Of a stretch of 64,000 nt of DNA, positions 7,740 to 40,968 are shown in pieces. This stretch comes from Actinokineospora auranticolor (GTDB lineage Bacteria; Actinomycetota; Actinomycetes; Mycobacteriales; Pseudonocardiaceae). The stretch's first letter is position 1. The number at the start of each line of letters is the position of its first letter. A model generated the notes under the pieces. It had not been told where the DNA came from. It did not search any database and worked only from the letters and a program-made list of their open reading frames with translations. The stretch is taken from NCBI RefSeq assembly GCF_002934265.1, contig NZ_PTIX01000005.1:372001-436000 (forward strand), written 5' to 3'. Both the position numbers and the translations under genes were made by a program.

Positions 7740-8198
7740 ATGACCAGTCCGTACGAGCACCTGTTCGTCAGGAAGATGCCGAACTGCCTCGACGACCTCG
7801 TCAACGAGGGTTCCGCCGCCGGGGTGGTGGAGCCGCCGAACATCGGCGAGGCGCTCGCGCTGATGCGGTCCGAGGAGGTGCCGGAGAGCAAGATCCACCT
7901 GACGTACTGCTGGATCAAGGAGTGCGACAGCCCGGTGGAGTGGGTCAAGGAGCACGTGCACGACTACGACGAGGTCCTGATCTGGCACGGCAACGACCCC
8001 GAGGACCCGGACTACCTGGGCGCGGAGATCTACTTCGACATCGAGGGTGTCCGGCACACGGTCACCACCAGCGGTTCGGTCTACATCCCGGCGGGCGTGA
8101 AGCACTGCCCGCTCGGGTTCACCAAGGTCGACCGGCCGTTCCGGTTCAGCGCGCTGTCGCTGGCCCCGAACTACGCGTCGGCCGACAAGAAGGCGTAG
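7740..8198 (+). CDS. Cupin-like protein of unknown function
   Basis: A 152-residue soluble protein. The frame is open further upstream, but ATG 7740 is preceded by a GGAAAGAGG ribosome-binding site and gives a typical N terminus (MTSPYEHLF). It contains EHVHDYDEVLIW, a cupin motif 1-like stretch with His and Glu/Asp metal-ligand candidates, and later GSVYIPAGVKHCPLGF, like cupin motif 2 (PxGxxH). A small-molecule binding or enzymatic role on the compound imported by the divergent ABC transporter is plausible. It is the only gene between that transporter and the LacI regulator, which suggests a three-part regulon. Confidence 0.8.
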   Translation: MTSPYEHLFVRKMPNCLDDLVNEGSAAGVVEPPNIGEALALMRSEEVPESKIHLTYCWIKECDSPVEWVKEHVHDYDEVLIWHGNDPEDPDYLGAEIYFDIEGVRHTVTTSGSVYIPAGVKHCPLGFTKVDRPFRFSALSLAPNYASADKKA

Positions 8199-8240: not shown

Positions 8241-9248
8241 TCATGTCCGGGGTTCGCAGCCGCAGGTCACGCCGACGCTGAGGGTGCCGTCGAGGATGGC
8301 GTCCCGGGGCGCGTCGCCCGCGTGGACCCGGTCGAGCGCGTCGAACGCGCGCGCCGCGAAGGTCTCCAACGGGAGACGGACCGTGGTGAGCGGGAAACCG
8401 CCCAGCACCGCTTCCCGGATCCCGTCGAAGCCGACGACCGCCAGGTCCTCCGGCACCCGCAACCCGAGGTTCGTCGCGGTGCGGATGGTGATGAGCGCCT
8501 GCTCGTCGGTCGTGGCGTAGATGGCGCGGGGGCGGTCGCGGCCCCGCAGTACCCGCTTGACGGCCTGCTCGGCGGCGACCCGGTCGAAGGACGAGCGGAC
8601 GAGCCTGCCCGCGGTCGGCAGACCCGCGTCCGCCATCGCCCGCCGCCAGCCACCCTCACGGCCGACCGCCGGACCCACCTCGATCTCCCCGGCCAGGCAG
8701 GCGATGTCGGTGTAGCCGTGCTCGACGAGGTGCTCGACGACGAGCCGGGCACCCTCGTGGTCGTTGAAGGTCACGTTGGGCGAACCCGCACCGGGAACGG
8801 CCCACTGCAAGAACACCCGTGGCGTCTCGTCGTCGCCGCGGGGCGCTTCGCCGGTGGTGACGAAGATGCCGCGGGGGCGCAGCTCGGAGAAGGCCTCGCC
8901 GTACTCGTCGCCGAGGGACGAGCCGTAGCCGGTGTTGCCGAGCAGGGTCAGCAGCCCCCGGCCGCGCCCCTCGGCCTCGATGCAGCGGGAAAGCTCGCCG
9001 TAGAAGGCGTTCGCGGTGTCGGGGACCAGCAGGCCGATGAGGTTGGAGCGACCGCCGCTGAGCGCGCCGGCCAGCGGGTTGCGCCGGTAGCCGAGCATCT
9101 GGATGGCTTCCTCGACCTTGACCCGGGTCTTCTCCGACACGGGCCGGGGCCCGCCGTTGAGCACGTAGCTGACCACGGCGGTGGACGTACCCGCCAACCG
9201 CCCCACGTCGAGCAACGTGGGCTTCCGCGCCGACCGCTTCCCACCCAC
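8241..9248 (-). CDS. LacI-family transcriptional regulator
   Basis: A 335-residue protein with an N-terminal LacI helix-turn-helix and hinge (PTLLDVGRLAGTSTAVVSYVLNG, then the YRRNPLA hinge around residues 55-62), followed by a periplasmic-binding-protein-like sensor domain (SNLIGLLVPDTANAFYGEL and later FDRVAAEQAVKRVLRG, with IYATTDEQALITIRTATNLG in the conserved position). Binds DNA as a dimer; a sugar or related small ligand usually releases it. GTG start. It should control the ABC operon and the cupin gene through the two dyads at 7577-7688; it has no such dyad visible in front of itself. Confidence 0.9.
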   Translation of the reverse strand: MGGKRSARKPTLLDVGRLAGTSTAVVSYVLNGGPRPVSEKTRVKVEEAIQMLGYRRNPLAGALSGGRSNLIGLLVPDTANAFYGELSRCIEAEGRGRGLLTLLGNTGYGSSLGDEYGEAFSELRPRGIFVTTGEAPRGDDETPRVFLQWAVPGAGSPNVTFNDHEGARLVVEHLVEHGYTDIACLAGEIEVGPAVGREGGWRRAMADAGLPTAGRLVRSSFDRVAAEQAVKRVLRGRDRPRAIYATTDEQALITIRTATNLGLRVPEDLAVVGFDGIREAVLGGFPLTTVRLPLETFAARAFDALDRVHAGDAPRDAILDGTLSVGVTCGCEPRT

Positions 9249-11870: not shown

Positions 11871-12427
11871 TGGCGCAGCCCCGTGCGGAGGGTGCTCGCC
11901 CAGGGCGCGTCGATGGTGTCGGCGCCGAGCGCCAGCACGGTGTTGCAGAGGAACCCACGCGCGAAGAACCGCTGGATCGCCTCGTCGTCGGCGCCGGTGA
12001 CCGCGCGGACGTACTCGACCTCCCGGGCGTAGCAGGCGCGGATCGCGTCGCCGATGGCGGGCTCGGTGGCCGCGCACGTGGCCTGGAGCAGGACCAGCAG
12101 CAGGTCCCGGTCGACGATCAGGCGGGCGTACGCCTCACCCAGGGCGTCGAGGACCGCCGCGGGGGCCGTGCCCTCCGCCTTCGCCGCGGCGTCGGCGAAG
12201 GCCTCCCGCATGCGGGTCGAGCAGTGCTCGATGACGGCGACGAACAGCGACTCCTTGTCCGGGAAGAGCCGGTACACGTAGGCCTGCGAGATCCCCGCGG
12301 CCTTGGCCACCTCGGACGTGGTCGTGCCGTAGTACCCCCGGGTGGCGAACGCCCCGATGGCGGTCCGCAGCACGACCTCGCGGCGTTCGTCCGCAGTGGA
12401 GAGCTGCCTGGAGCTCGTACGTGCCAT
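11864..12427 (-). CDS. TetR-family transcriptional regulator
   Basis: A 187-residue TetR protein. Residues about 12-58 are the helix-turn-helix domain (RREVVLRTAIGAFATRGYYG, then SEVAKAAGISQAYVYRLFPDKESLF); the rest is the all-helical ligand-binding and dimer domain. ATG 12427 is used because upstream in-frame sequence covers the preceding gene's end and lacks family similarity. It lies 32 bp after the epimerase gene on the same strand, with a dyad in the gap. Related dyads stand before the epimerase gene, so it probably represses both. Confidence 0.9.
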   Translation of the reverse strand: MARTSSRQLSTADERREVVLRTAIGAFATRGYYGTTTSEVAKAAGISQAYVYRLFPDKESLFVAVIEHCSTRMREAFADAAAKAEGTAPAAVLDALGEAYARLIVDRDLLLVLLQATCAATEPAIGDAIRACYAREVEYVRAVTGADDEAIQRFFARGFLCNTVLALGADTIDAPWASTLRTGLRHY

Positions 12428-12428
12428 G

Positions 12429-12446
12429 TGACTAATCAACCACTCA
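12429..12446. promoter_or_regulatory. Dyad related to TetR operators, in front of the TetR gene
   Basis: TGACTAATCAACCACTCA has imperfect arms (TGAnT / AnTCA) and shares the CCACTCA half-site with the perfect dyad at 13422-13439. It immediately precedes the TetR ATG, fitting autoregulation. Confidence 0.45.
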
Positions 12447-12459
12447 TACTCTGTCGCTG

Positions 12460-13404
12460 TCAACCGAGTAGCTGCCGGTACCACGCGATCGTGGCCGCGA
12501 TGCCCTCCTCGAACGGCGTCGGCCGCAGCCCGAACGCGTCCTCGACGGCCCGGCAATCCACGATCTGCGGCTCCAGGTACTGGTAGAACAGCTCGGCGTA
12601 TTCACGCATGAACACCTCGTCGAACGGACCCCAGGCCCGGTCGGTCGCCGCGGGCAGCACGTCCCGTGTCAGCTCGACGCCCAACTCCCGCTCGATCAAA
12701 CCGTGCACCTGGCGCGTCGACAGGGTCGAGATGGTGGGAACGTGCCACACCCGCCCGAGTGCTTCCGGTCGCTCGCCCAGGGTCGCGAGCGCGCGGGCCA
12801 CATCGCCGATGTGGCTGAAGGCGTGCGGCTGGTCGATGTCGCCCAGCGCCACAACGGGCTCGCCGTGCAGTGCGGGTACGAAGACCGCGCCGCCGAGCGC
12901 GGAGTTGAGCACTCGCGGCCCGTAGAAGTCCGCGGCCCGCGCGATGGCCACCTCGGCCACCCCGTCGGTGTGGGCGCGCAGGTAGCGGTCCGCGACCTCC
13001 GCCCGCAGCCGCCCCTTGTGCGAGGTGGCCCGGTGCGGCGTCCGCTCGGTCATCGGCTCACCGCCGGTGGGCCCGTACATGTACAGCGTGTCGGTGACCA
13101 CGAGCCGCGCCCCGCTGCTCGCGGCGCCCGCGAGGAAACCCGCCTGGAGCCGGGGGAGCAGGTCGTCCCACAGGTGGTACGGGGCGTGCGCGCAGTGGTA
13201 GATCGCCGTCGCGCCCGCGCAGACCTCGCGCATGCGGGGTTCGTCGGTGATGTCGGCGGCGACGAGCTCCGCCGCCCGCGGCACCGACGCCGAGCCGCTG
13301 CGGTTGACCGCGCGCACGCGGTGTCCACGGGCCAGCAGCTCGTCGACCAGGGTGAGCCCGGCGGGGCCGGTGCCGAACACGACGTGCAGCTCAAGAGCGT
13401 TCAT
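12460..13404 (-). CDS. NAD-dependent epimerase/dehydratase family protein
   Basis: A 314-residue extended short-chain dehydrogenase. The N terminus carries the Rossmann motif GTGPAGLTLVDELLARGH (residues 8-25), a variant of GxxGxxG, followed by ITDEPRMREVCAGATAIYHCA, the usual cofactor-adenine and NNAG-type positions, and an active-site Tyr in LYMYGP with a downstream Lys in SHKGRLRAE. Likely reduces or epimerises a sugar or ketone; substrate not predictable. ATG 13404 is preferred to the upstream in-frame codon at 13494, which would put the operator-like dyads inside the gene. Transcribed with the TetR gene. Confidence 0.87.
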   Translation of the reverse strand: MNALELHVVFGTGPAGLTLVDELLARGHRVRAVNRSGSASVPRAAELVAADITDEPRMREVCAGATAIYHCAHAPYHLWDDLLPRLQAGFLAGAASSGARLVVTDTLYMYGPTGGEPMTERTPHRATSHKGRLRAEVADRYLRAHTDGVAEVAIARAADFYGPRVLNSALGGAVFVPALHGEPVVALGDIDQPHAFSHIGDVARALATLGERPEALGRVWHVPTISTLSTRQVHGLIERELGVELTRDVLPAATDRAWGPFDEVFMREYAELFYQYLEPQIVDCRAVEDAFGLRPTPFEEGIAATIAWYRQLLG

Positions 13405-30913: not shown

Positions 30914-31573
30914 CCGTCCTCCCGGATTCTCCCGCCGCCGGGCCGCGCGGTCACGCCGTTCCACCAACCGGACGCTTGGCCCACCGGATGACAAACGACC
31001 CTGGCGTGTGCTGCGCACCGGGTGACACGGCAACCGGTGCGCCACACCCGAAGGCTGGTGACAGAAGCAGGCCATTCGCCCGGAGGCGGTTCCGATCGCC
31101 GGTGCGGGTCGAGAGGATGGCGTCCTGGTCGGCAGCGGGCATCCGGCCAGGTGGCACGACCTCGGGAGAGATGTCGTGAGCGGCGACCCGGTGTTGGCGG
31201 AGCGGCTGTGCGCGAGGTGCGGGCAGGGCCACTGCGCGCCGCGACGCGGCGGATCCGCTCGGGCGGTTTCGCCGGAGACGCGCCCGGACCGGAACCGGGC
31301 TCTGGCGCGACCTCGGGACAGACACCGTGCTGTCCGGTCGGTTGCGCGCTGGGTAGCGAGCGGCCTGTTCGGGGAGGGCGGCGCCCGGGCGGCTCGAAGG
31401 TTCCGGCCGCGTGGCGCTGCCCCAGGGGGCGGGACGGGTGACCGGGTGCCGGTCGGGCCGCTGTTCGCCGGGGTGTGGGCGCGTCCGCGGAATTTGTTCA
31501 GGCGGTTTCGGGGAGAACGGCGTCCGTGCCCGCACAGGACTTCCGACCAGGCGGAACGACCTCGGAGGACGTC
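30914..31573. other. 660-bp intergenic region with degenerate repeats of the sigma gene 5' end
   Basis: No convincing gene. Two elements recur three times each. GGCGGTTTCG or a one-base variant is at 31085-31094, 31262-31271 and 31501-31510. ACGACCTCGG or a variant is at 31157-31166, 31308-31317 and 31557-31566, the last directly before the sigma gene ATG. After the first ACGACCTCGG copy, a GTG-initiated frame reads SGDPVLAERL, resembling the sigma start DDERALVERL; after the second copy VLSGRLRAG then a stop resembles ALVERLRAG. The region looks like decayed tandem copies of the promoter and first codons. Confidence 0.5.
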
Positions 31574-34500
31574 ATGGATGACGAGCGGGCGTTGGTGGAG
31601 CGGTTGCGGGCCGGGGAACCCGCGGCGCAGCGGGAACTGTTCGAGCGGTGGCGGCCGTGGTTGCGCGGCTTCTTCCGGTCCCGGGTGGACCCCGGCGAGG
31701 TGGAGGACCTGGCCAGTGAGGTCATCACCCGGGCGTTGGAGGGGCTGCGCGGCGGCCAGCGGCCCGAGGCGCTCGGCGCCTGGGGCGCGGGGATCGCCCG
31801 CAACGTGCTCCGGCGGTGGTACGAGCAGCGCAGCCGCCGTCCGACCGGGATGCCCGACGAGGTGGCTCAGCCGACCGCCGACCCGGCGTTCGACCTCGAC
31901 CGAACCGAGCTGCCCGACCAGCCCGAGCAGCTGGTCGTCCAGCTGGGCGAACGGCACCTGTGGAACACCGTGGTGGCGGCTGCCGACGGGCTCGGCGGTG
32001 AGCTGGCGCCGATCATGCGCACGCACATCGAGCTGACCCGCAGCCGGGGGCGGATGGTCGTCGGCACCGAGCTGGCGGCGGCCGTGGGGCGGCCGGTGGA
32101 CGTCGTCAACCGGCAGTTCCACCGCTCCCGGACCAAGCTGCTGGACATGCTGTCCGCGCTGGTCATCGCCCGCACCGGGCGCGGCGACTGCACCGCGCTG
32201 GTCGGCACCCTCGACGGTGTCCTGCGCCCCGACCAGCCCGTCGGCCGCGACCTGGTGCTGGACCCGACGCAGGCGCGGAAGGTGCTCAAGCACGCCGACG
32301 GCTGCCCGGCCTGCGCGCTGCGGGCCAAGCAGGCCAAGGACTTCAGCCGGTGGGCGCTGGGCCCGGGACTGGTCGGCCTGCCCGAGGACGACGACGAGCG
32401 CCGTCGCGCGGTCGCCGCCCTGTTCAGCCGCGCCGCCGAGGCACCCGCCGCGCCGGGGACGGTCGCCCTGGGCGCGGTGCCCGCGCCGCTCATCGCCGAC
32501 GAGTCGGGGCTGCTGGGTCGCGTCCGGACGGCGCTGGCGTCGAGGGTGGCCGCGGCACCCCGGCCGGACGCGGCGATCCGGTTCGTGCAGCACCACCCCG
32601 ACGTCGTCCAGCGGATCGTGGCGGTCACGGCGGGCGGTGTCGTGGTGACGGCGGCGGTCGTGCTGGCCGTGCTCGCGCCGGAAGGGGACTCGACGGCCGG
32701 GCCGGTCACGGGCGGACCGCCGACCAGCACCGTCGCGGGCGCCGACCCCGCGCGGCCCGGCGACGGCGTGAACCCGGTGGTGCCGGTCGCGGTGACCAGC
32801 GTGGCCACCACCGAGGCCGCCCCCACCGCCACCGGCCCCCAACCGACCCCGAACCCCACCACGACATCCCCGGCCCCCGCCCCGACCACGGGGACGACCC
32901 ACTCCACGGCCACGCCACCCACCACCACGGAACCCGGCAAGACCACCCCACAGCCGACGACAACTCCACCGCCGACCACCACCATGACCACCCCGCCGCC
33001 GACGACCACAACGACGACCACAACGACGACCACAACCCCGACGACCACAACCCCGACGACCACAACGTCACCACCGACGACCACAACCCCGCCGCCGGTG
33101 ACCACGACTCCGCCGCTGACTACGACAACCTCGCCGCCGACCACGACCACCCAGGCTCCGATGACCACAACGCCACCACCGGCCACTACGACCCCGCCAC
33201 CGACGACGACCACCCAGACGCCGACGACGACCACCCAGACGCCGACGACGACCACCCAGACGCCGACGACCACAACGCCCCCGCCGACTCCGACCACCAC
33301 CACGACCCCGGCGCCGACGACGACCACCCCACCACCCACCCCCGTCGGCGAGACCGTGGTCCTGGACGTCACCGGTCTGTCCTACGAGTCCTTCACCGTC
33401 TCCGGCCAACCCGGCGTGCTGGACGCCCGCCGCACCCACGAGCTACGGCTGACCCCCGGTCAGCACACCCTCACCGTCTCCGCAGGTGCCAAGGTCACCT
33501 TCGAGGTCACCGCCGACCACCACATCGCCTACGACCCCACCCTCCAGGGCACCCTCACCGGCGCGGGCACGTCCACCCTGGCCGTGCACGGGCACGAGTT
33601 GACCCTCGACACCACCGACCTCGACTACGAGAACGTCACGGTCACCGGCACCGGCTGGCTCCCCTACGACCCGGCCCGCCGCCGGTCCCTGCTGCCCGGA
33701 AAGCACTTCGTGGTCCCCGCCGCGGGCAACCAGATCCCGTTCACCGTCACCGGCGACGGCCACGTCGTCTACGACCTCGCCCTCCAAGGCACCCTCACCG
33801 GCGCGGGCACCTCCACCCTGGCCGTCCACGGGCACACGATCACCCTGGACACCACCGGGCTGGACTACCGCGCCACCTCCGTCGCGGGCACCGGCTGGCC
33901 GGTCTACCGTCCCGTCAGCACCCGACGGCTGCTCCCCGGCTCGTACTCGCTCGTCGCCAACAACGGCAACTCCGTCCCGTTCACCGTCACCGACAGCGGG
34001 GACGTCACCTACGCCACGAACCTGGAGGGCCTGCTCACCGGCGCCGGCAGCCCGACCCTCGCCGCGCACGGGCGGCCCGTGGTCCTCGACACCACCGAAC
34101 TGGACCACGCCAACTCGACCATCAACGGCGCCGCGTGGCCGCCGAGGCAGACAACGCGCACCTACCGGGTCCTACCCGGAAACCAGAACGTGGCCACGAC
34201 GAGCGGGCACCTCGTCCCGTTCCGCGTCACCCTCGACGGGAAGATCCAGTACGACGACCCACAAGCGGGCCTGCTCACCGGCGCGGGCACCTCGACCGTT
34301 GCCGTGCACGGTCTCCCCGTCCGCGTCGACGTGTCCGATGTGGACTACTACAACATGACCGTCAACGCCGCCGGGTGGCAGACCGCGACCACGGTGCGCA
34401 CCTACCGGCTCCTGCCCGGCGCGCACCGCGTCGACGCCCCCAACGGCAACTTCGTCCCGTTCACCCTCACCCGCTCGGGCACCGTCGAGTTCGACCCGTC

Positions 34501-36238
34501 CGCGGCGGGCGTCCTCACCGTGAGCGGGTCCGCCCTGGTCGTCCACGGCGTCCCGATCACCCTCGACAACCGGGACATCAGCTACGCCAACACGACCCTC
34601 GGCGGCGTCGCCATGCACGTCCCCGCCGCGACCCACACCTTCCGCGTGCTTCCCGGCAACCACACCGTCGTGACCAGCAACTCCGTCACCGTCCCGTTCA
34701 CCGTCACCACCGGGGGCCGGGTCGCCTACGACCCGGCCCTGGAGGGCAGGCTCACCGGTACCGGCACGGATACCGTCGCCGTGCACGGCTCCGAGGTCAC
34801 CATCGATACCACCGGCGTGGACTGGACTTCTACGACCGTGCCCGGAATGTCCTCGTGGAACGGTCACACGACAAGAACGCTGAAACTGCTCCCCGGCAAG
34901 CACGCCATCTTCGGCCCGGGCAGCGTGACCCTCGCCTTCCAGGTGACCGATACCGGCGCGGTGACCTACGACCCCGCTCTGGGGCGGGTCCTGGCGGGCG
35001 CGGGCACGTCAACCCTGGCCGTGCGCGGCTTCCCGATCACCTTCGACACACGCGGCCTGGACTACGGCAACGTGTCGGTCAGCGGCTCGGGATGGCCCGC
35101 GTACCAACCCGTCGTCACCAGGGCGTTGATCCCCGGCTCGTACTCGCTCGTCGCCAACAACGGCAACTCCGTCCCCTTCACCATCACCGAAGACGGCCAC
35201 ATCGCCTACGCCGCGAACCTGGAGGGCCTGCTCACCGGCGCGGGCAGCACCACACTCGCCGCGCACGGACTGCCCGTCACGCTCGACACCACCGACCTCG
35301 ACCACGCGCAGGTGACCCTGAGCGGCGCGGGATGGCCGCCCAAGCAGGCCGTCCGGACCTTCCGGATGCTGCCGGGCAACCAGGCCGTGCTCACCTCGAG
35401 CGGACACTCACTGCCGTTCCGGCTGACCGCGGACGGAAAGGTCGAGTACGACGCGACCGAGACGGGCCTGCTCTCCGGCGCCGGGACATCGACTGTCGCG
35501 GTGCACGGTCTGCCGATCCAAGTCGACGTGTCCGATGTGGACTACTACACGATGACCATCAACTCGGTCGGCGCGCAGACACCCCAGGCCGTGCGCACGT
35601 ACCGACTCCTCCCTGGCGCGCACCGCGTCGACGCGCCCAACGGCAACGCGGTGCCGTTCGCGGTGACGCGAGACGGCCGGATCGAGTACGACCGGTCCGT
35701 GGACGGCCTGCTCACCGGCCGGGGCACCACCACGGTCGCCGTGCACGGATACCCGGTCACCCTCGACGCCCGGGACCTCACCTACACCAACGTCACCGCG
35801 GGTGGTGTCGCCTTCCACACCGCCGCGCCCACGCACACCTTCCGGCTGCTGCCCGGCGCGCAGACGCTGCTCACCGCCGCCGGGGTCAAGGTTCCCTTCA
35901 CCTTCGCCGCCGACGGAACCGTGCACTACGACACCGGACTGGCGGGAACCCTGACGGGCGGAGGCACCGCCACCCTCGCCGCGCACGGGCGGGAGATCAC
36001 CATCGACGCGCGGGACAGCGGGTGGCAGTCCGTCGTCATCACCGGCGTCGGCGTGATGAACGCGCGGCAGCCGAACGCGGTGCGACTGCTGCCGGGTGAC
36101 CACGTCGTCGTCGCCCCCGGCAACGTCAACCGCCCGTTCCAGGTGACCGAGGCGGGCACGGTCGAGTACGCGACAAGCCTCGACACCGTATTCGCCGGCC
36201 GCGGCACGGCAACGCTACTCGTCCGCAAACCGGCCTGA
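31574..36238 (+). CDS. Membrane-spanning ECF sigma factor fused to anti-sigma zinc motif and extracellular repeats
   Basis: A 1554-residue single chain. Residues 1-175 are an ECF sigma factor: region 2 (FFRSRVDPGEVEDLASEVITRAL) and region 4 (a helix-turn-helix near ELAAAVGRPVDVVNRQFHRS). His240, Cys244 and Cys247 (HADGCPAC) form the HX3CX2C motif of zinc anti-sigma factors. Residues 348-370 are one hydrophobic helix, followed by a Thr/Pro linker (413-590) and twelve repeats of about 80 residues, each ending near LTGAGTSTLAVHG, that fill 591-1550. The sigma part would be cytoplasmic and the repeats outside, so the chain could be a self-inhibited, membrane-tethered sigma factor released on sensing the wall or a ligand. 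ATG 31574 has GGAGG 5 nt upstream; the open frame extends 99 nt further. Fused sigma/anti-sigma proteins are known in actinomycetes; I do not recognise this repeat. Confidence 0.88.
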   Translation: MDDERALVERLRAGEPAAQRELFERWRPWLRGFFRSRVDPGEVEDLASEVITRALEGLRGGQRPEALGAWGAGIARNVLRRWYEQRSRRPTGMPDEVAQPTADPAFDLDRTELPDQPEQLVVQLGERHLWNTVVAAADGLGGELAPIMRTHIELTRSRGRMVVGTELAAAVGRPVDVVNRQFHRSRTKLLDMLSALVIARTGRGDCTALVGTLDGVLRPDQPVGRDLVLDPTQARKVLKHADGCPACALRAKQAKDFSRWALGPGLVGLPEDDDERRRAVAALFSRAAEAPAAPGTVALGAVPAPLIADESGLLGRVRTALASRVAAAPRPDAAIRFVQHHPDVVQRIVAVTAGGVVVTAAVVLAVLAPEGDSTAGPVTGGPPTSTVAGADPARPGDGVNPVVPVAVTSVATTEAAPTATGPQPTPNPTTTSPAPAPTTGTTHSTATPPTTTEPGKTTPQPTTTPPPTTTMTTPPPTTTTTTTTTTTTPTTTTPTTTTSPPTTTTPPPVTTTPPLTTTTSPPTTTTQAPMTTTPPPATTTPPPTTTTQTPTTTTQTPTTTTQTPTTTTPPPTPTTTTTPAPTTTTPPPTPVGETVVLDVTGLSYESFTVSGQPGVLDARRTHELRLTPGQHTLTVSAGAKVTFEVTADHHIAYDPTLQGTLTGAGTSTLAVHGHELTLDTTDLDYENVTVTGTGWLPYDPARRRSLLPGKHFVVPAAGNQIPFTVTGDGHVVYDLALQGTLTGAGTSTLAVHGHTITLDTTGLDYRATSVAGTGWPVYRPVSTRRLLPGSYSLVANNGNSVPFTVTDSGDVTYATNLEGLLTGAGSPTLAAHGRPVVLDTTELDHANSTINGAAWPPRQTTRTYRVLPGNQNVATTSGHLVPFRVTLDGKIQYDDPQAGLLTGAGTSTVAVHGLPVRVDVSDVDYYNMTVNAAGWQTATTVRTYRLLPGAHRVDAPNGNFVPFTLTRSGTVEFDPSAAGVLTVSGSALVVHGVPITLDNRDISYANTTLGGVAMHVPAATHTFRVLPGNHTVVTSNSVTVPFTVTTGGRVAYDPALEGRLTGTGTDTVAVHGSEVTIDTTGVDWTSTTVPGMSSWNGHTTRTLKLLPGKHAIFGPGSVTLAFQVTDTGAVTYDPALGRVLAGAGTSTLAVRGFPITFDTRGLDYGNVSVSGSGWPAYQPVVTRALIPGSYSLVANNGNSVPFTITEDGHIAYAANLEGLLTGAGSTTLAAHGLPVTLDTTDLDHAQVTLSGAGWPPKQAVRTFRMLPGNQAVLTSSGHSLPFRLTADGKVEYDATETGLLSGAGTSTVAVHGLPIQVDVSDVDYYTMTINSVGAQTPQAVRTYRLLPGAHRVDAPNGNAVPFAVTRDGRIEYDRSVDGLLTGRGTTTVAVHGYPVTLDARDLTYTNVTAGGVAFHTAAPTHTFRLLPGAQTLLTAAGVKVPFTFAADGTVHYDTGLAGTLTGGGTATLAAHGREITIDARDSGWQSVVITGVGVMNARQPNAVRLLPGDHVVVAPGNVNRPFQVTEAGTVEYATSLDTVFAGRGTATLLVRKPA
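32811..33343 (+). repeat. Low-complexity Thr/Pro-coding repeats within the sigma-fusion gene
   Basis: The linker is made of ACNACC-type codon runs. A 21-bp unit (GACGACGACCACCCAGACGCC) is repeated three times in tandem at about 33201-33263, and ACGACCACA units repeat around 33000-33070. All stay in frame, so the length can vary without disrupting the gene. Confidence 0.85.
33344..36235 (+). repeat. Twelve tandem 80-residue (about 240-bp) coding repeats
   Basis: Each unit begins near a VxLDTTxLDY stretch, has a central LLPG and a VPFTVT strand, and ends LTGAGTSTLAVHG. Units 3 to 6 resemble 8 to 11 more closely than their neighbours (for example SYSLVANNGNSVPFT in units 3 and 8, and HRVDAPNGN in 5 and 10), showing duplication of a five-unit block of about 1.2 kb. 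Confidence 0.85.
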
Positions 36239-36287: not shown

Positions 36288-36881
36288 TCAGTGCGCGACG
36301 AGCAGGCGGGCGTGCAGGTCCGCCTCCTTGACCACGATGCGCACCGGCACGTACGCCCCGGGGTCGATGCCCCGGTACCCGTGCCGGACAACGGACTCGT
36401 GGATCTCCTCCGAGACCACGACCACGAGATCGGCCTCCGGCGACCGGTCCAGCTCCACGTACAGCGGCTCCCCGTTCACCAGCCTGCACGCCTTGACGAC
36501 CTCGGTGCTCACCCAGCCGACCTCGCTGCGCAGCACCTCACCCGCGTGCACGGCCATCCGCACCCGGATCCGCAGCCGCGCCGCGACCACCGAGTTGTAC
36601 TCGCGCAACCCGGCCGCCAGCCGCGGCACCACCGGGTCCAGCAGGTCCACCTTGGATATCCCCGGTGGCACCAGGATGATCATCCCGTCCCCGGTGCCCT
36701 CCACCCGCAGCCGCCACCACGGTATCCCGGCGTCGCGGAAAGCCGCCCGCACCAGCAGGTCCAGCGCTCGGCGCGCGCGAACCTGCCCGAGGTTGTCCCA
36801 CCGCGACGACCCCACCATGTCGACCACCACGATCGACCGGTGCTTCGGCCCGCCCCGGCCGGTCCACTGCCGTACCACCAT
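36288..36881 (-). CDS. Class III nucleotidyl cyclase-like protein
   Basis: A 197-residue protein with the outline of a cyclase homology domain. RSIVVVDMVGSSRWDN has the first metal Asp position, GTGDGMIILVP the second (GD), and RIRVRMAVHAGEV the conserved strand that follows. The purine-recognition Lys before GTGD is replaced by Glu, and the usual NxAARL segment near the transition-state Asn/Arg is not recognisable (WVSTEVVKACRLVN instead). It could be a sensor, a degenerate cyclase or an enzyme with other specificity. ATG 36881 gives a compact domain; the upstream frame contains the hairpin at 36961-36990. No membrane segment. Confidence 0.7.
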   Translation of the reverse strand: MVVRQWTGRGGPKHRSIVVVDMVGSSRWDNLGQVRARRALDLLVRAAFRDAGIPWWRLRVEGTGDGMIILVPPGISKVDLLDPVVPRLAAGLREYNSVVAARLRIRVRMAVHAGEVLRSEVGWVSTEVVKACRLVNGEPLYVELDRSPEADLVVVVSEEIHESVVRHGYRGIDPGAYVPVRIVVKEADLHARLLVAH

Positions 36882-36960
36882 CGCCCCGCTCCCTCCTCGG
36901 TTTGACGGTGTTGTGCCGAGTGGAGTGCGGTTCTCCCCGGGATGTCCGCGAAAGACGAAG

Positions 36961-37025: not shown

Positions 37026-40000
37026 TCAGCTGGTCTGCAGGGCCACGTCGTCGATGAGGAAGCTCGTCTGCAGGCTCGCGTCCTCAACACCGTTGAACTT
37101 GACCGTCACCGACTGGCCCGCGTACTGGCCGACGTTGATGGTGCGCTGGACGTAGCCGCCACCGGCGTCGGTGTTCGAGTAGGTCGCCACGGTCGCGTTG
37201 TTGACCGTCACGGTCAGGCGGTCGTAGGCGACGCTCTCGGTCTCCGCGGTGGTGATCCGCAGCCAGTAGGTCAGCGTCGAGTTGGTGCAGCCCGACGGGA
37301 TGCTGACGGTCTGCGCCGCGCTGTCGGTGCGGGGGCTGCCCCACCCGTTCAGCCACGCCTTCCAGGAGCCGGTGCGGGCCGCCTCCTGCGCCGAGCTGTC
37401 GACCACCCCGGAGGTGGTGGTCCACGGCGCGGTGCCGCTCTCGAAGCCGCCGTTCTGGATGACGTTGGCGCCCGAGCAGGTGCCCGGGTTGGTGCCCACG
37501 GTCAGCGTGAACGTCGCCGAGCGGGTCGCGGTGCCGACACCGGAGATGGTGATCGGGTAGGTGCCCGGCGCCACCGAGGACCCGACGGAGATGGACGCCG
37601 CGGCCGACGAACCGGTCTGCACCGAGGTCGGGTTGAAGGACACCGTGACGCCCGTGGGCGCGCCGGTGGCCGACAGGGTCACGGTCTGCGCCGCCCCGGA
37701 CGTGGTCTGGGTCGACACCGTGGTGCTCGCCGTGCCACCCGGCTGGACCGAGGTGGAGGTCGGGCTCAGCGCCACCGAGAAGTCCTGGCCCGGCTGCGGC
37801 GTGCTGGTGACGGCCTGCTTCCACAGCGCGTAGGCGATGCCGTCCGAGGCGCGGTCCAGGTGCGTCGTGCTGATGTTGCTCGTGTTGTCGCACGCCGAGT
37901 GGTAGCAGGAGTCGTACGCCGAGTTGGCCGTGCCGCCCCACTTGGTGGCCTGCGCCGAGGTCTTGCGGGCGGAGGCGCCGGTGGCGTAGCCGGAGGACGG
38001 GATGCCCGCCTGCTGGAAGGAGTAGTCGTCGGAGCGGCCCGCGCCCTCGACGTTCTCCTCCGGGGCCAGGTTCAGCGAGGTCCAGTACTCCCGCAGCGGC
38101 TGCGACTGGGTGGTGTTGATGTTGTTGATGAAGTACCCGCCGTTGCGGGACCCGATCATGTCGAAGTTGTAGTACGCCTTGATCGCGGTCCGCTGCGCGG
38201 CGGTCAGCTGGCCGACGTAGAACTTCGAGCCGTTGAGGCCCTGCTCCTCGTCGGTCCACCAGCCGAACCGGACGTGCTTGGCCATGGTCGGGTTCTTCGC
38301 GGCCAGCTGGAGCGCGACCTCGAGGAGGGCGGCCGAGCCGGAGCCGTTGTCGTTGATGCCCGGGCCCGCGGCCACGCCGTCGAGGTGGGCGCCGAACATG
38401 ATCGTCTGGTTGGCGTCGCCGCCCGGCCAGTCGGCGATCAGGTTGTTGGACCGGTAGGTGCAGCCCGAGGAGCAGGTCTGCTCGACCACGGAGTAGCCCG
38501 CCGCCTGCAGCTTGCCCTTGATGTAGGCCACGGACGCGGTGTAGCCCGCGCTACCGGCGCGGCGGTTGCCGCCGTTCTGCGACGCGATGGTGCCCAGCTG
38601 CGACAGGTGCGCGGAGACCGCGTTCACGTCGATGTTCGGCGCGGTCGGGTCCGGGTCGGGGCCGCCGCCACCGGTCACGGTCAGGCTGTACGTCGCGGTG
38701 TGGCTGGTGGCGCCCGCCGCGGTGACCGTGATGGTGTAGGTGCCGTTGGCGACCGTCGAGGCGACGTTCACCGTGGCGGTCGAGGACGCGCCGGTCTGCA
38801 CCGAGGACGGGGTGAACGACACGGTCACGCCGCTGGGCTGGCCCGAGGCGGACAGGGTGACGTTCTGCGCCGAGCCCGAGGTCGTCTGGGTGGCGACCTG
38901 GAAGGTGGCGGAGTTGCCCTTGACGACCGAGCCCGAGGACGGGTTCAGCGACAGCGAGAACTCGTTGCCGGGCGTGCCGGTGCAGGTGGGCTCACCGGTC
39001 TGCGCGGGCATGGTGATCGCGTCCCACGCGGCCTTGGTCTTGTTGAACAGACCACAGGTCGAGTCCAGGTTCTTCGCCGCGGTGAGCGTCGCGATCCGGT
39101 ACTTGCGGTGCGTCATGCCGGAGGTCTTGAGCAGCATGCCGCCGTAGAAGATCTTGCCCGCGTTCTGGATGCCCACACCGGTCAGCGTGGTGTTGTTGCA
39201 CGTCGGGCTGGTCGGCTTGCCGCCGCCCGGGTTCGTGCCCTCCGCGAGGAGGTAGAACCAGTGGTTCAGCGGGCCCGCCGCCTTGTGCACCTCGGTGTTG
39301 GGGATCGAGGAGCTGTAGCAGTTCGGGTCGCTGTTGACCAGCGAGGGGTTGTACATGTTCCGGATGGGACCGCGGCCCTGCAGGTTGATGGTCTCGCCGA
39401 CCAGGTAGTCCGCCGGGTCCTTCGGGTTGTTGGCGTAGGCCTCGGTCAGCGCGCCGAAGATGTCACCGGTCGCCTCGCCGAGCCCGGCCTCCTGGGAGGT
39501 GCCGCCCGGGGTGTTCTGGTCGAGACCGTGGCCGTACTCGTGGCCGGTCACGTCCATGCCCGCGATCCACTTGTTGGCCGAGTTGTAGCCGATGGTGATC
39601 GTGGAGCCGTCCCAGTAGGCGTTCTGCTGGTTCAGGCCGACCTTGCCGGGCCAGCTGCGGCCCGAGCCGGTGTGGCCGTTGCGGCCCAGCCAGTCGCGCA
39701 GCATGTTCCACTCCTGCTGCGCGCCGTAGAGCAGGTCACCGCAGCCGGTCTCGCGGCTGGTGGCGTTGCCGGTGCCCCAGGAGTCGGTCGATTTCGAGAA
39801 GACCTGGCCGCCGCTGTAGTCCGAGCACTGCAGGCCCGGGCGGTTGGGGTCGACCATGCGGTAGGTGCCACCGGAGTTGGTGGTGTCGATGGTGACGTTG
39901 CCGTTCCACTCGCTGTTCAGCGTGCCGTGGGCGGCGTCCTCGACCTTGTCCAGCACCGCGCCGGAGTTGGCGTCGACCCAGACCGTCAGGTGGCTCGGGC

Positions 40001-40529
40001 CACCCTCCTTGGTGCTGCCGACGACGAGGTGCTCCCACGCCAGGGCGGGCTTGTCGGCGGTGACCTTGACGACCAGGCGGGCGGACTCGACCTTGGTGGT
40101 CTTGCCCTGCAGGCCGCGCGAGGTCGCCTCGGCGGCGGCCTTGGTGACCCGCGCGGTGGTGCCGGGGACGGCCACCTTCGCCTTGGTCGCGGCCATCACG
40201 GCCTGCACGCGCCCCTGGCCGTCGGCCAGGACCGTGGCGTCGCCGCCGACGACCGGTAAGCCGCGGTAGCTGCGCTGGTAGCTCACCGAGTACAGGTTGT
40301 TGAGGTACGGCGTGACCAGGTCGCGCGCGTAGCTCTCGTCCGGGCCCTTGGCCAGGGCGTCCAAGCCGCTGCTCGCGGCCACGTCGGCCGCGGAGACGGC
40401 CAGCGCCTGCGGGCTCTGGCCCTGGGGTTGCTGGCCTTCACTGGCCGATACCGGGCTGACGGTCAGGGCGACCGCCGTCCCGGCCAGCACGGCGAGGGCG
40501 ACACCGGCCGCCATCGTTCTGCGCTTCAT
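37026..40529 (-). CDS. Secreted double protease: M4 (thermolysin-like) fused to M28 aminopeptidase
   Basis: An 1167-residue exported protein. After a signal peptide ([23 protein letters not shown]) comes an FTP-type propeptide, then an M4 metalloprotease with HEYGH (about 329-333), the third ligand in GEATGD and the catalytic-support His in [15 protein letters not shown] first Ig-like domain starts near 523. The M28 domain carries His in FGAHLDGV (about 714), Asp in [13 protein letters not shown], Glu-Glu in WTDEEQG, Asp in NFDMIGS and His in CYHSACD. A second Ig-like domain (about 913-1010) and a C-terminal jelly-roll starting [11 protein letters not shown] follow. Endo- and exopeptidase activity would thus act in one secreted chain. 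ATG 40529 chosen for the signal peptide; an in-frame codon upstream adds a non-signal stretch. Confidence 0.93.
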
Positions 40530-40968
40530 CGAATGCTCCTTAGTGCAGGGTTGCGCACGGCACGGCCGGTTTCCGCCTCGTGGGCAGAGCAGAACACCGC
40601 TGGAGTGGAGTGGGACGACACCGAGCGCGGTGAGCATCGAACTTGGTCAACCAACAGTCAAGAGATCGAAAACTCCACTTGCCAATTGTCAAAGATTTGG
40701 CAAATCTTCGTCGACGCCGCGTGGTGCCGCCTTGGGCTGTTCGGATCAGGGCATCGGCTGGTGGGGGCGCTGGTATCGAGCGCGGTCACCGGTGGTGTCC
40801 GAGTGGGGATCAAGCAAACCGATGGTCAAGGAAATCCCATTAACAGGGATGGTCTGCCAGGTTCCGACCGCGCTGTCTGGGGCGTGAAACTGCTGGAGGG
40901 CCGAGAAGATCGGCACCCGGCCCTCGGACCCTGGTCGGACGTACAGCGGACGGTCCACAGTGGTAAAT
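40530..40968. other. Intergenic region between divergent double-protease and deacetylase genes
   Basis: No gene seen. It holds AT-rich dyads at 40679-40708: TTGCCAA pairs with TTGGCAA (40679-40685, 40697-40703), and AAGATTT-GGC-AAATCTT is a perfect 7-bp repeat (40692-40708). These sit about 150 bp before the protease start and could bind a repressor. TACAGC at 40942-40947 may be the -10 box of the deacetylase gene. Confidence 0.5.
40692..40708. promoter_or_regulatory. Perfect dyad AAGATTT-N3-AAATCTT
   Basis: The 7-bp arms around GGC overlap a second repeat (TTGCCAA/TTGGCAA) in a strongly AT-rich patch, unusual in this genome. No other copy was seen in the window. Confidence 0.45.

Follow-up and report, generated by a model that had tools for sequence, protein, structure and literature searches.

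Fused ECF sigma factors

Extracytoplasmic function (ECF) sigma factors fused to their own regulators are known but little studied. In ECF48, ECF52 and ECF53, the sigma factor shares its chain with a zinc finger and membrane helices (PMC8999054, PMC10766802). The studied ECF52 protein, SCO4117 of Streptomyces coelicolor, combines a sigma factor, zinc finger, membrane region, proline-rich stalk and carbohydrate-binding module on one chain, and autoregulation and proteolytic release have been suggested for this group (PMC5826349). In IutY of Pseudomonas putida (ECF243), a sigma factor is likewise fused to a membrane anti-sigma factor and is freed by Prc and RseP; among fused ECF sigma factors, a proteolytic route has been shown for IutY only (PMC8999054). 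IutY differs from the protein described here in serving Gram-negative iron-starvation cell-surface signalling, with a different sensor and partner. In the RsgI system of Clostridium thermocellum, SigI and its anti-sigma factor are separate proteins and of another kind. RsgI nevertheless offers a parallel in its outside substrate sensor, its membrane helix, which RseP cuts, and its control of a sigma factor (PMC12203970).

The protein under study is encoded in a 64,000-nucleotide stretch of the Actinokineospora auranticolor genome, hereafter the window, by a single unbroken frame of 1,554 amino acids (31574..36238, plus strand, as are all of its parts). It begins with ECF sigma regions 2 and 4 (31574..32173, residues about 1-200), with homology over both, followed by a zinc anti-sigma (ZAS) motif (32189..32314) with ligands C206, H240, C244 and C247, a single membrane helix (32615..32671, residues 348-366), a Thr/Pro stalk (32690..33352, residues 373-593) and twelve beta domains that we describe as CnaB-like (33353..36229, residues 594-1552). 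The initial annotation of this DNA had recognised the region 2 and 4 motifs, an HX3CX2C motif at His240, Cys244 and Cys247, one helix at 348-370, the Thr/Pro stalk and twelve 80-residue repeats, all in one frame. Each of these elements was recovered, with C206 as an additional ligand, the helix at residues 348-366 and one of the twelve repeats 79 residues long. A frameshift or assembly fusion was rejected because the frame is kept in three species of the genus. Novelty had also been claimed for the union of sigma and anti-sigma factor, and this does not stand: ECF48, ECF52, ECF53 and IutY (PMC8999054) and SCO4117 (PMC5826349) precede it. With a sigma factor, zinc finger, membrane region and proline-rich stalk on a single chain, and a domain outside, the architecture is that of SCO4117 and ECF52.

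The four ZAS ligands are invariant across 10 aligned sequences, and the Cys...H-X3-C-X2-C pattern is present in 13 of 13 window-type fusions; Pfam zf-HC2 scored below its cut-off on the window protein, which has the full ligand set. In a model of residues 1-290, regions 2 and 4 are clear, residues 89-121 form a disordered linker, and helices are predicted at 231-243 and 245-261; with a pTM of 0.53, it gives at best a tentative view of how the zinc part packs on the sigma regions. The structure matches listed span about residues 1-195 and so scarcely cover the zinc part.

Outside parts and the clade of window-type fusions

Where SCO4117 carries a carbohydrate-binding module, the window protein carries its twelve repeats, in which the block R3-R7 matches the block R8-R12. 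Each is predicted to be an all-beta domain (pLDDT 95). CnaB-type domains were the top match by both profile and structure search, albeit a weak one, and there was no strong CnaB or carbohydrate-binding match among the structure-search matches listed. The nearest relatives thus appear, weakly, to be CnaB-type beta-sandwich stalk domains, such as those of the Gram-positive adhesins and pilins FbaB (CnaB2) and SpaC. The initial annotation did not recognise the repeat, whose resemblance to CnaB domains by profile and by structure is weak. An isopeptide-bonded CnaB stalk was rejected. A survey took in 37 repeats of five species (for A. diospyrosa, 7 out of 8), and 15 of them have no Lys, so that the intramolecular Lys-Asn/Asp bond of CnaB domains is not a general feature; in the window protein five of the twelve repeats lack Lys, and any given Lys position is shared by two repeats at most. 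Pfam placed no carbohydrate-binding module above cut-off in the window protein, and matches to Seadorna_VP8 and cupin fell below cut-off and were taken as chance.

The 80-residue repeat was found here only in some Pseudonocardiaceae, in 8 of 200 genomes of the family and 4 of 16 of the genus (the window genome counted in both). A widespread repeat was rejected, with none detected in 395 other genomes across the phylum, where each genome contributed few scored candidates (9 in the rows listed). A first contig scan with the single window protein gave 86 pattern matches and no relative.

The fusion belongs to a group that we followed at 14 loci: those of the window, A. inagensis, A. diospyrosa and A. 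enzanensis (all Actinokineospora, Pseudonocardiaceae), A. globicatena, A. terrae, L. albidocapillata, Saccharothrix sp. S26, Lentzea aerocolonigenes, Actinophytocola algeriensis, and genomes G106, G122, G126 and G157. Species of one genus among these are not independent, and the G157 locus, split over two contig ends, is counted as one by inference. In a tree, from which G106 was left out, the 13 window-type fusions form one clade with support of 1.0, apart from 15 fused paralogs. The paralogs have open frames of 428-714 amino acids, occur across the family, and are those of 25 loci tried that gave a usable sigma-to-zinc stretch, the rest being dropped; we presume this common kind to be ECF52-like. 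One of them lies in the window genome itself, which therefore, in a further departure from the SCO4117 case, holds a second sigma, zinc finger and membrane fusion on another contig (L066 1995-3773, minus strand, a 593-residue frame).

Outside the membrane, the 14 loci differ. Nine carry the 80-residue repeat; by our reading, four, in two separate places in the tree, carry Cys/Trp-containing repeats of about 100 residues and one a propeller-like part. The sensor thus appears to be exchanged between species on a constant sigma-ZAS-membrane chassis, and three such unlike outside parts would constitute a natural experiment showing that it is exchangeable.

Pieces of this design were also observed elsewhere. 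In two proteins (L031 8153-11762 and L032 8303-9952, minus strand), a zinc-like motif is combined with an outside part of diverged or Cys/Trp repeats, mostly with a membrane helix as well; Pfam detected no sigma region 2 in the two proteins of this type tested. They lie near genes read as NB-ARC/TPR and look like the sensor and anti-sigma portion of such a fusion minus its sigma factor. A STAND-type NTPase with TPR (L065 5457-9949, minus strand; nSTAND_NTPase5 just below cut-off) has a juxtamembrane and membrane segment of a similar kind (47% over 52 residues), as if the same anchor served another signalling protein, and its start overlaps the end of a distant cyclase-like gene.

A convergent cyclase-like gene

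Unlike SCO4117, the window fusion faces a convergent gene resembling class III nucleotidyl cyclases (36288..36881, minus strand; ATG at 36881, preceded by gaggaggg) and encoding a protein of 197 residues. Four proteins of this family were tried against Pfam and gave no match at E values up to 0.1. A 12-row profile searched against the PDB matched class III cyclases (Ma1120 and 3mr7, E 2e-5 and 4e-5); RecA chains in the same list (E 3e-4 to 5e-3) covered short repeated pieces and were taken as chance. Profile homology places a class III cyclase-like domain with two metal-binding aspartates beside the fusion. All 12 rows have the first metal Asp and the Arg, and 11 of 12 have the second metal Asp; the window protein has all three. 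It differs from Ma1120 and 3mr7 in lacking a Pfam match and is referred to here as a putative cyclase. In the Ma1120 chain 5d0g, Glu, Gly and Tyr replace the wild-type Lys, Asp and Ala; this chain scored 27.5 bits against the profile and the wild type 23.2. At the first two of these three places Glu and Gly are also what the window protein has, a hint from sequence and nothing firmer that GTP may be its substrate.

Alternatively, the protein may be inactive as an enzyme and serve as a nucleotide sensor controlling the sigma factor or another partner, making no messenger. The transition-state Asn-Arg pair is incomplete, with Val at the Asn position of the window protein and various residues there in its relatives, and inactive cyclase domains occur in other actinobacterial systems (Kaur et al. 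2020, PMC7159879). However, both metal aspartates and the Arg are kept, and Ma1120 is an active cyclase with Ala for this Asn (PMC4215837). Three homologues, picked for testing because of the Crp-like look of their neighbours, adjoin Crp-family regulators with cNMP-binding domains (L103 6800-8275, L107 6732-8207, L106 7732-8394), which also argues for a messenger. We regard a dead sensor as unlikely, though it is the alternative we take most seriously. A separate sigma-like gene was seen about 3 kb from the Crp-cyclase genes of G120 and G099 (L103 3618-4598 and L104 4153-4683, minus strand).

A cyclase-like gene with at least 39% identity to that of the window adjoins the sigma fusion in 9 of the 14 loci. 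Eight of the nine pairs are convergent; that of A. algeriensis is head-to-head. By outside part, 8 of 9 fusions with the 80-residue repeat are paired, the exception being A. enzanensis, as is the single propeller-like fusion, and none of the four with Cys/Trp repeats. No close cyclase lies beside the fusions of A. enzanensis (which has the same repeats), A. globicatena, A. terrae or L. albidocapillata, and the G122 fusion (Cys/Trp repeats) has only a distant cyclase neighbour, at 32%. The surroundings otherwise differ: sigma fusions and cyclases aside, just two related-gene groups among the called genes of the 14 stretches have at least three members, one of 8 genes in five stretches and one of 3 genes in two.

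Convergence argues less strongly for joint function than an operon would. Chance or mere synteny could have put a cyclase-like neighbour beside what is otherwise an ordinary ECF52/53-type fusion with a lineage-specific outside part. The domain order of the window protein is, after all, that of SCO4117; the cyclase family has 7 matches in the window genome and is found elsewhere alone or fused to other domains; and 5 of the 14 loci lack a close cyclase. By our reading, the homologues elsewhere in the window genome are fused to NB-ARC-type and vWA-type proteins, and some in other genomes have no sigma fusion nearby. Yet pairing recurs in 9 of 14 loci amid largely different surroundings, and the same motif precedes the sigma and the cyclase-like genes, so we hold this explanation to be improbable. 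Cyclase domains are known in actinobacterial conflict systems, in a report whose main text does not contain the word 'sigma' (PMC7159879), and ECF sigma genes have been described in other neighbourhoods, with no such fusion in the passages at hand (PMC8195603).

Past the cyclase-like gene, the next gene of the window (37026-40637, minus strand) encodes a large protein with a signal-like N-terminus and an HEYGH motif, which we read as a thermolysin-like protease with further domains after it.

A shared promoter motif and a proposed switch

One candidate ECF-type promoter motif, GGGGAGAAC-N14-CAC, lies ahead of both genes with 0 mismatches, at 31510..31535 (plus strand) before the sigma gene and at 36913..36938 (minus strand) before the cyclase-like gene. 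It is distinct from the SCO4117 motif, CSGYN-17bp-SRHA. From AAC to CGT (in CACGT) there are 16 bases, a spacing usual for ECF promoters, and in the aligned sigma genes the motif starts 64-71 bases ahead of the start codon. Its presence at sigma genes is partly circular, because the motif was derived from an alignment of the regions upstream of seven of them; neither the cyclase copies nor the genome-wide counts entered into that derivation.

Both genes are preceded by the motif in all nine pairs, with 0-2 mismatches of 12. On the cyclase side there are 0 in the window, 1 in A. inagensis, A. diospyrosa, G106, G157 and Saccharothrix, and 2 in G126, L. aerocolonigenes and A. algeriensis, these last being weak alone (p 0.02-0.05, mononucleotide shuffles). 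On the sigma side there are 0 in seven pairs, 1 in Saccharothrix and 2 in A. algeriensis. The sigma copy of L. aerocolonigenes lies about 330-350 bases upstream, before a small sigma-like ORF (L115 ~8648-9001) that stands between motif and fusion and has an ATGA overlap at its end. Within 260 bp of the sigma start there is no good match in L. aerocolonigenes (p 0.71), G122 (p 0.63) or L. albidocapillata (p 0.14); in the latter two, the motif instead precedes the gene just upstream of the fusion.

GGGGAGRAC-N14-CAC has 7 sites in the 8.43 Mb window genome, two at this locus and five inside ORFs or near ORF starts, against 1 for the reversed-pattern control, and GGRGAGAAC-N14-CACR has 4, two at this locus, against 0. 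In other genomes the reversed controls gave 0-2 and 0-1 each, respectively. One further GGRGAGAAC-N14-CACR site lies before an ORF for an EF-hand-like protein; the other sites of the window genome yielded no further targets. Among 346 called gene starts, which were set mechanically, a score of 11 or 12 of 12 is reached by ten: three sigma fusions (L116_6, L117_6, L119_5), two cyclase-like genes (L028_1, L100_7) and five genes for secreted-looking proteins beside a sigma fusion (L026_6, L118_8, L064_5, L025_6, L118_10). Five starts score 10, one of them the G126 cyclase and four other genes. Several sigma genes do not figure in this count because they were called with too early a start. The paralog sigma genes, scored at the 15 of 25 loci that gave a start (the rest dropped), reach at most 9 of 12, and the window genome's own paralog has no motif upstream (7/12).

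Of the secreted-looking proteins, so read from their N-termini, those of L. aerocolonigenes (L026_6), L. albidocapillata (L118_8) and G122 (L064_5) are encoded just upstream of the fusion and that of G126 (L025_6) divergently from it. A Saccharothrix homologue of L026_6 (81%) has a motif site at 7797 with 1 mismatch. Two of these five proteins, counting the Saccharothrix one, show a weak resemblance to CBM_4_9 that falls below cut-off (E 0.02 and 0.098). Around the A. globicatena and A. terrae fusions, the only site within 18.8 kb, allowing up to 1 mismatch, is that of the sigma gene itself.

We propose a model, to which we give a probability of about 0.6, where the fusion is a one-protein transmembrane switch. 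Outside, the twelve CnaB-like domains on their Thr/Pro stalk would extend across the wall to encounter a cue, which may be a polysaccharide or some other surface. Inside, the ZAS domain would hold sigma regions 2 and 4 of the same chain in an inactive state. Once the cue is met, the chain would be cut at or near the membrane, freeing the sigma part to read the motif before its own gene, in positive feedback, and the promoter of the convergent cyclase-like gene, giving a burst of a cyclic-nucleotide-type signal. In the two Lentzea species, Saccharothrix, G122 and G126, the same motif would also bring a secreted-looking protein under its control. Comparative evidence supports the anatomy, the zinc ligands, the conserved pairing and the shared motif, and it is on sequence comparison of this kind that the wiring of the switch rests. 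We infer the reading of the motif by the sigma factor, the cue, inhibition in cis, the protease and its cut, and the activity and product of the cyclase. A sugar polymer as the cue is a guess, made because of the co-regulated secreted-looking proteins and of ECF52 (PMC5826349).

A membrane-held sigma factor released by proteolysis had been suggested at the outset; the same mechanism has been proposed for such proteins (PMC8999054), and we likewise propose it for the present fusion. Other ways of switching are conceivable. Some ZAS proteins are redox switches, and the sigma factor could be switched in place, while still membrane-bound, if zinc were lost, if the protein were phosphorylated or if the stalk transmitted a conformational pull. 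SCO4117 is indeed phosphorylated (PMC5826349), but proteolysis is predicted for ECF48, ECF52 and ECF53 and reported as shown for IutY (PMC8999054), and we give switching in place only a slim chance beside proteolytic release.

More novel are two points that the initial annotation lacks, the promoter motif common to both genes and the convergent cyclase-like gene. The literature searched, in the portions available and with the main ECF classification paper outside that search, yielded no mention of the repeat, of the clade, of the motif or of the cyclase pairing. It is tempting to speculate, tentatively and at somewhat less than even odds, that the core regulon is the sigma factor itself plus a class III cyclase, perhaps of the guanylyl type. 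Surface contact would then be turned into a cyclic-nucleotide signal by way of transcription, with the sensor swapped and the chassis and promoter held constant. If the sigma factor drives the cyclase, two signalling modes are joined that were not found joined in the literature searched. Since the sequence itself offers a candidate promoter, a partner enzyme and likely targets, the class is directly testable.

Both L100_7 and L118_10, counted among the ten above, have the motif at 11 of 12. The first, an orphan cyclase-like gene of G122 (L100 6726-7337, minus strand), lies far from the sigma fusion and is a possible target in trans. In L. albidocapillata a convergent gene (L118_10, 12103-12642, minus strand) encodes a secreted-looking protein with Cys-rich segments and occupies the place held by the cyclase-like gene in other loci.
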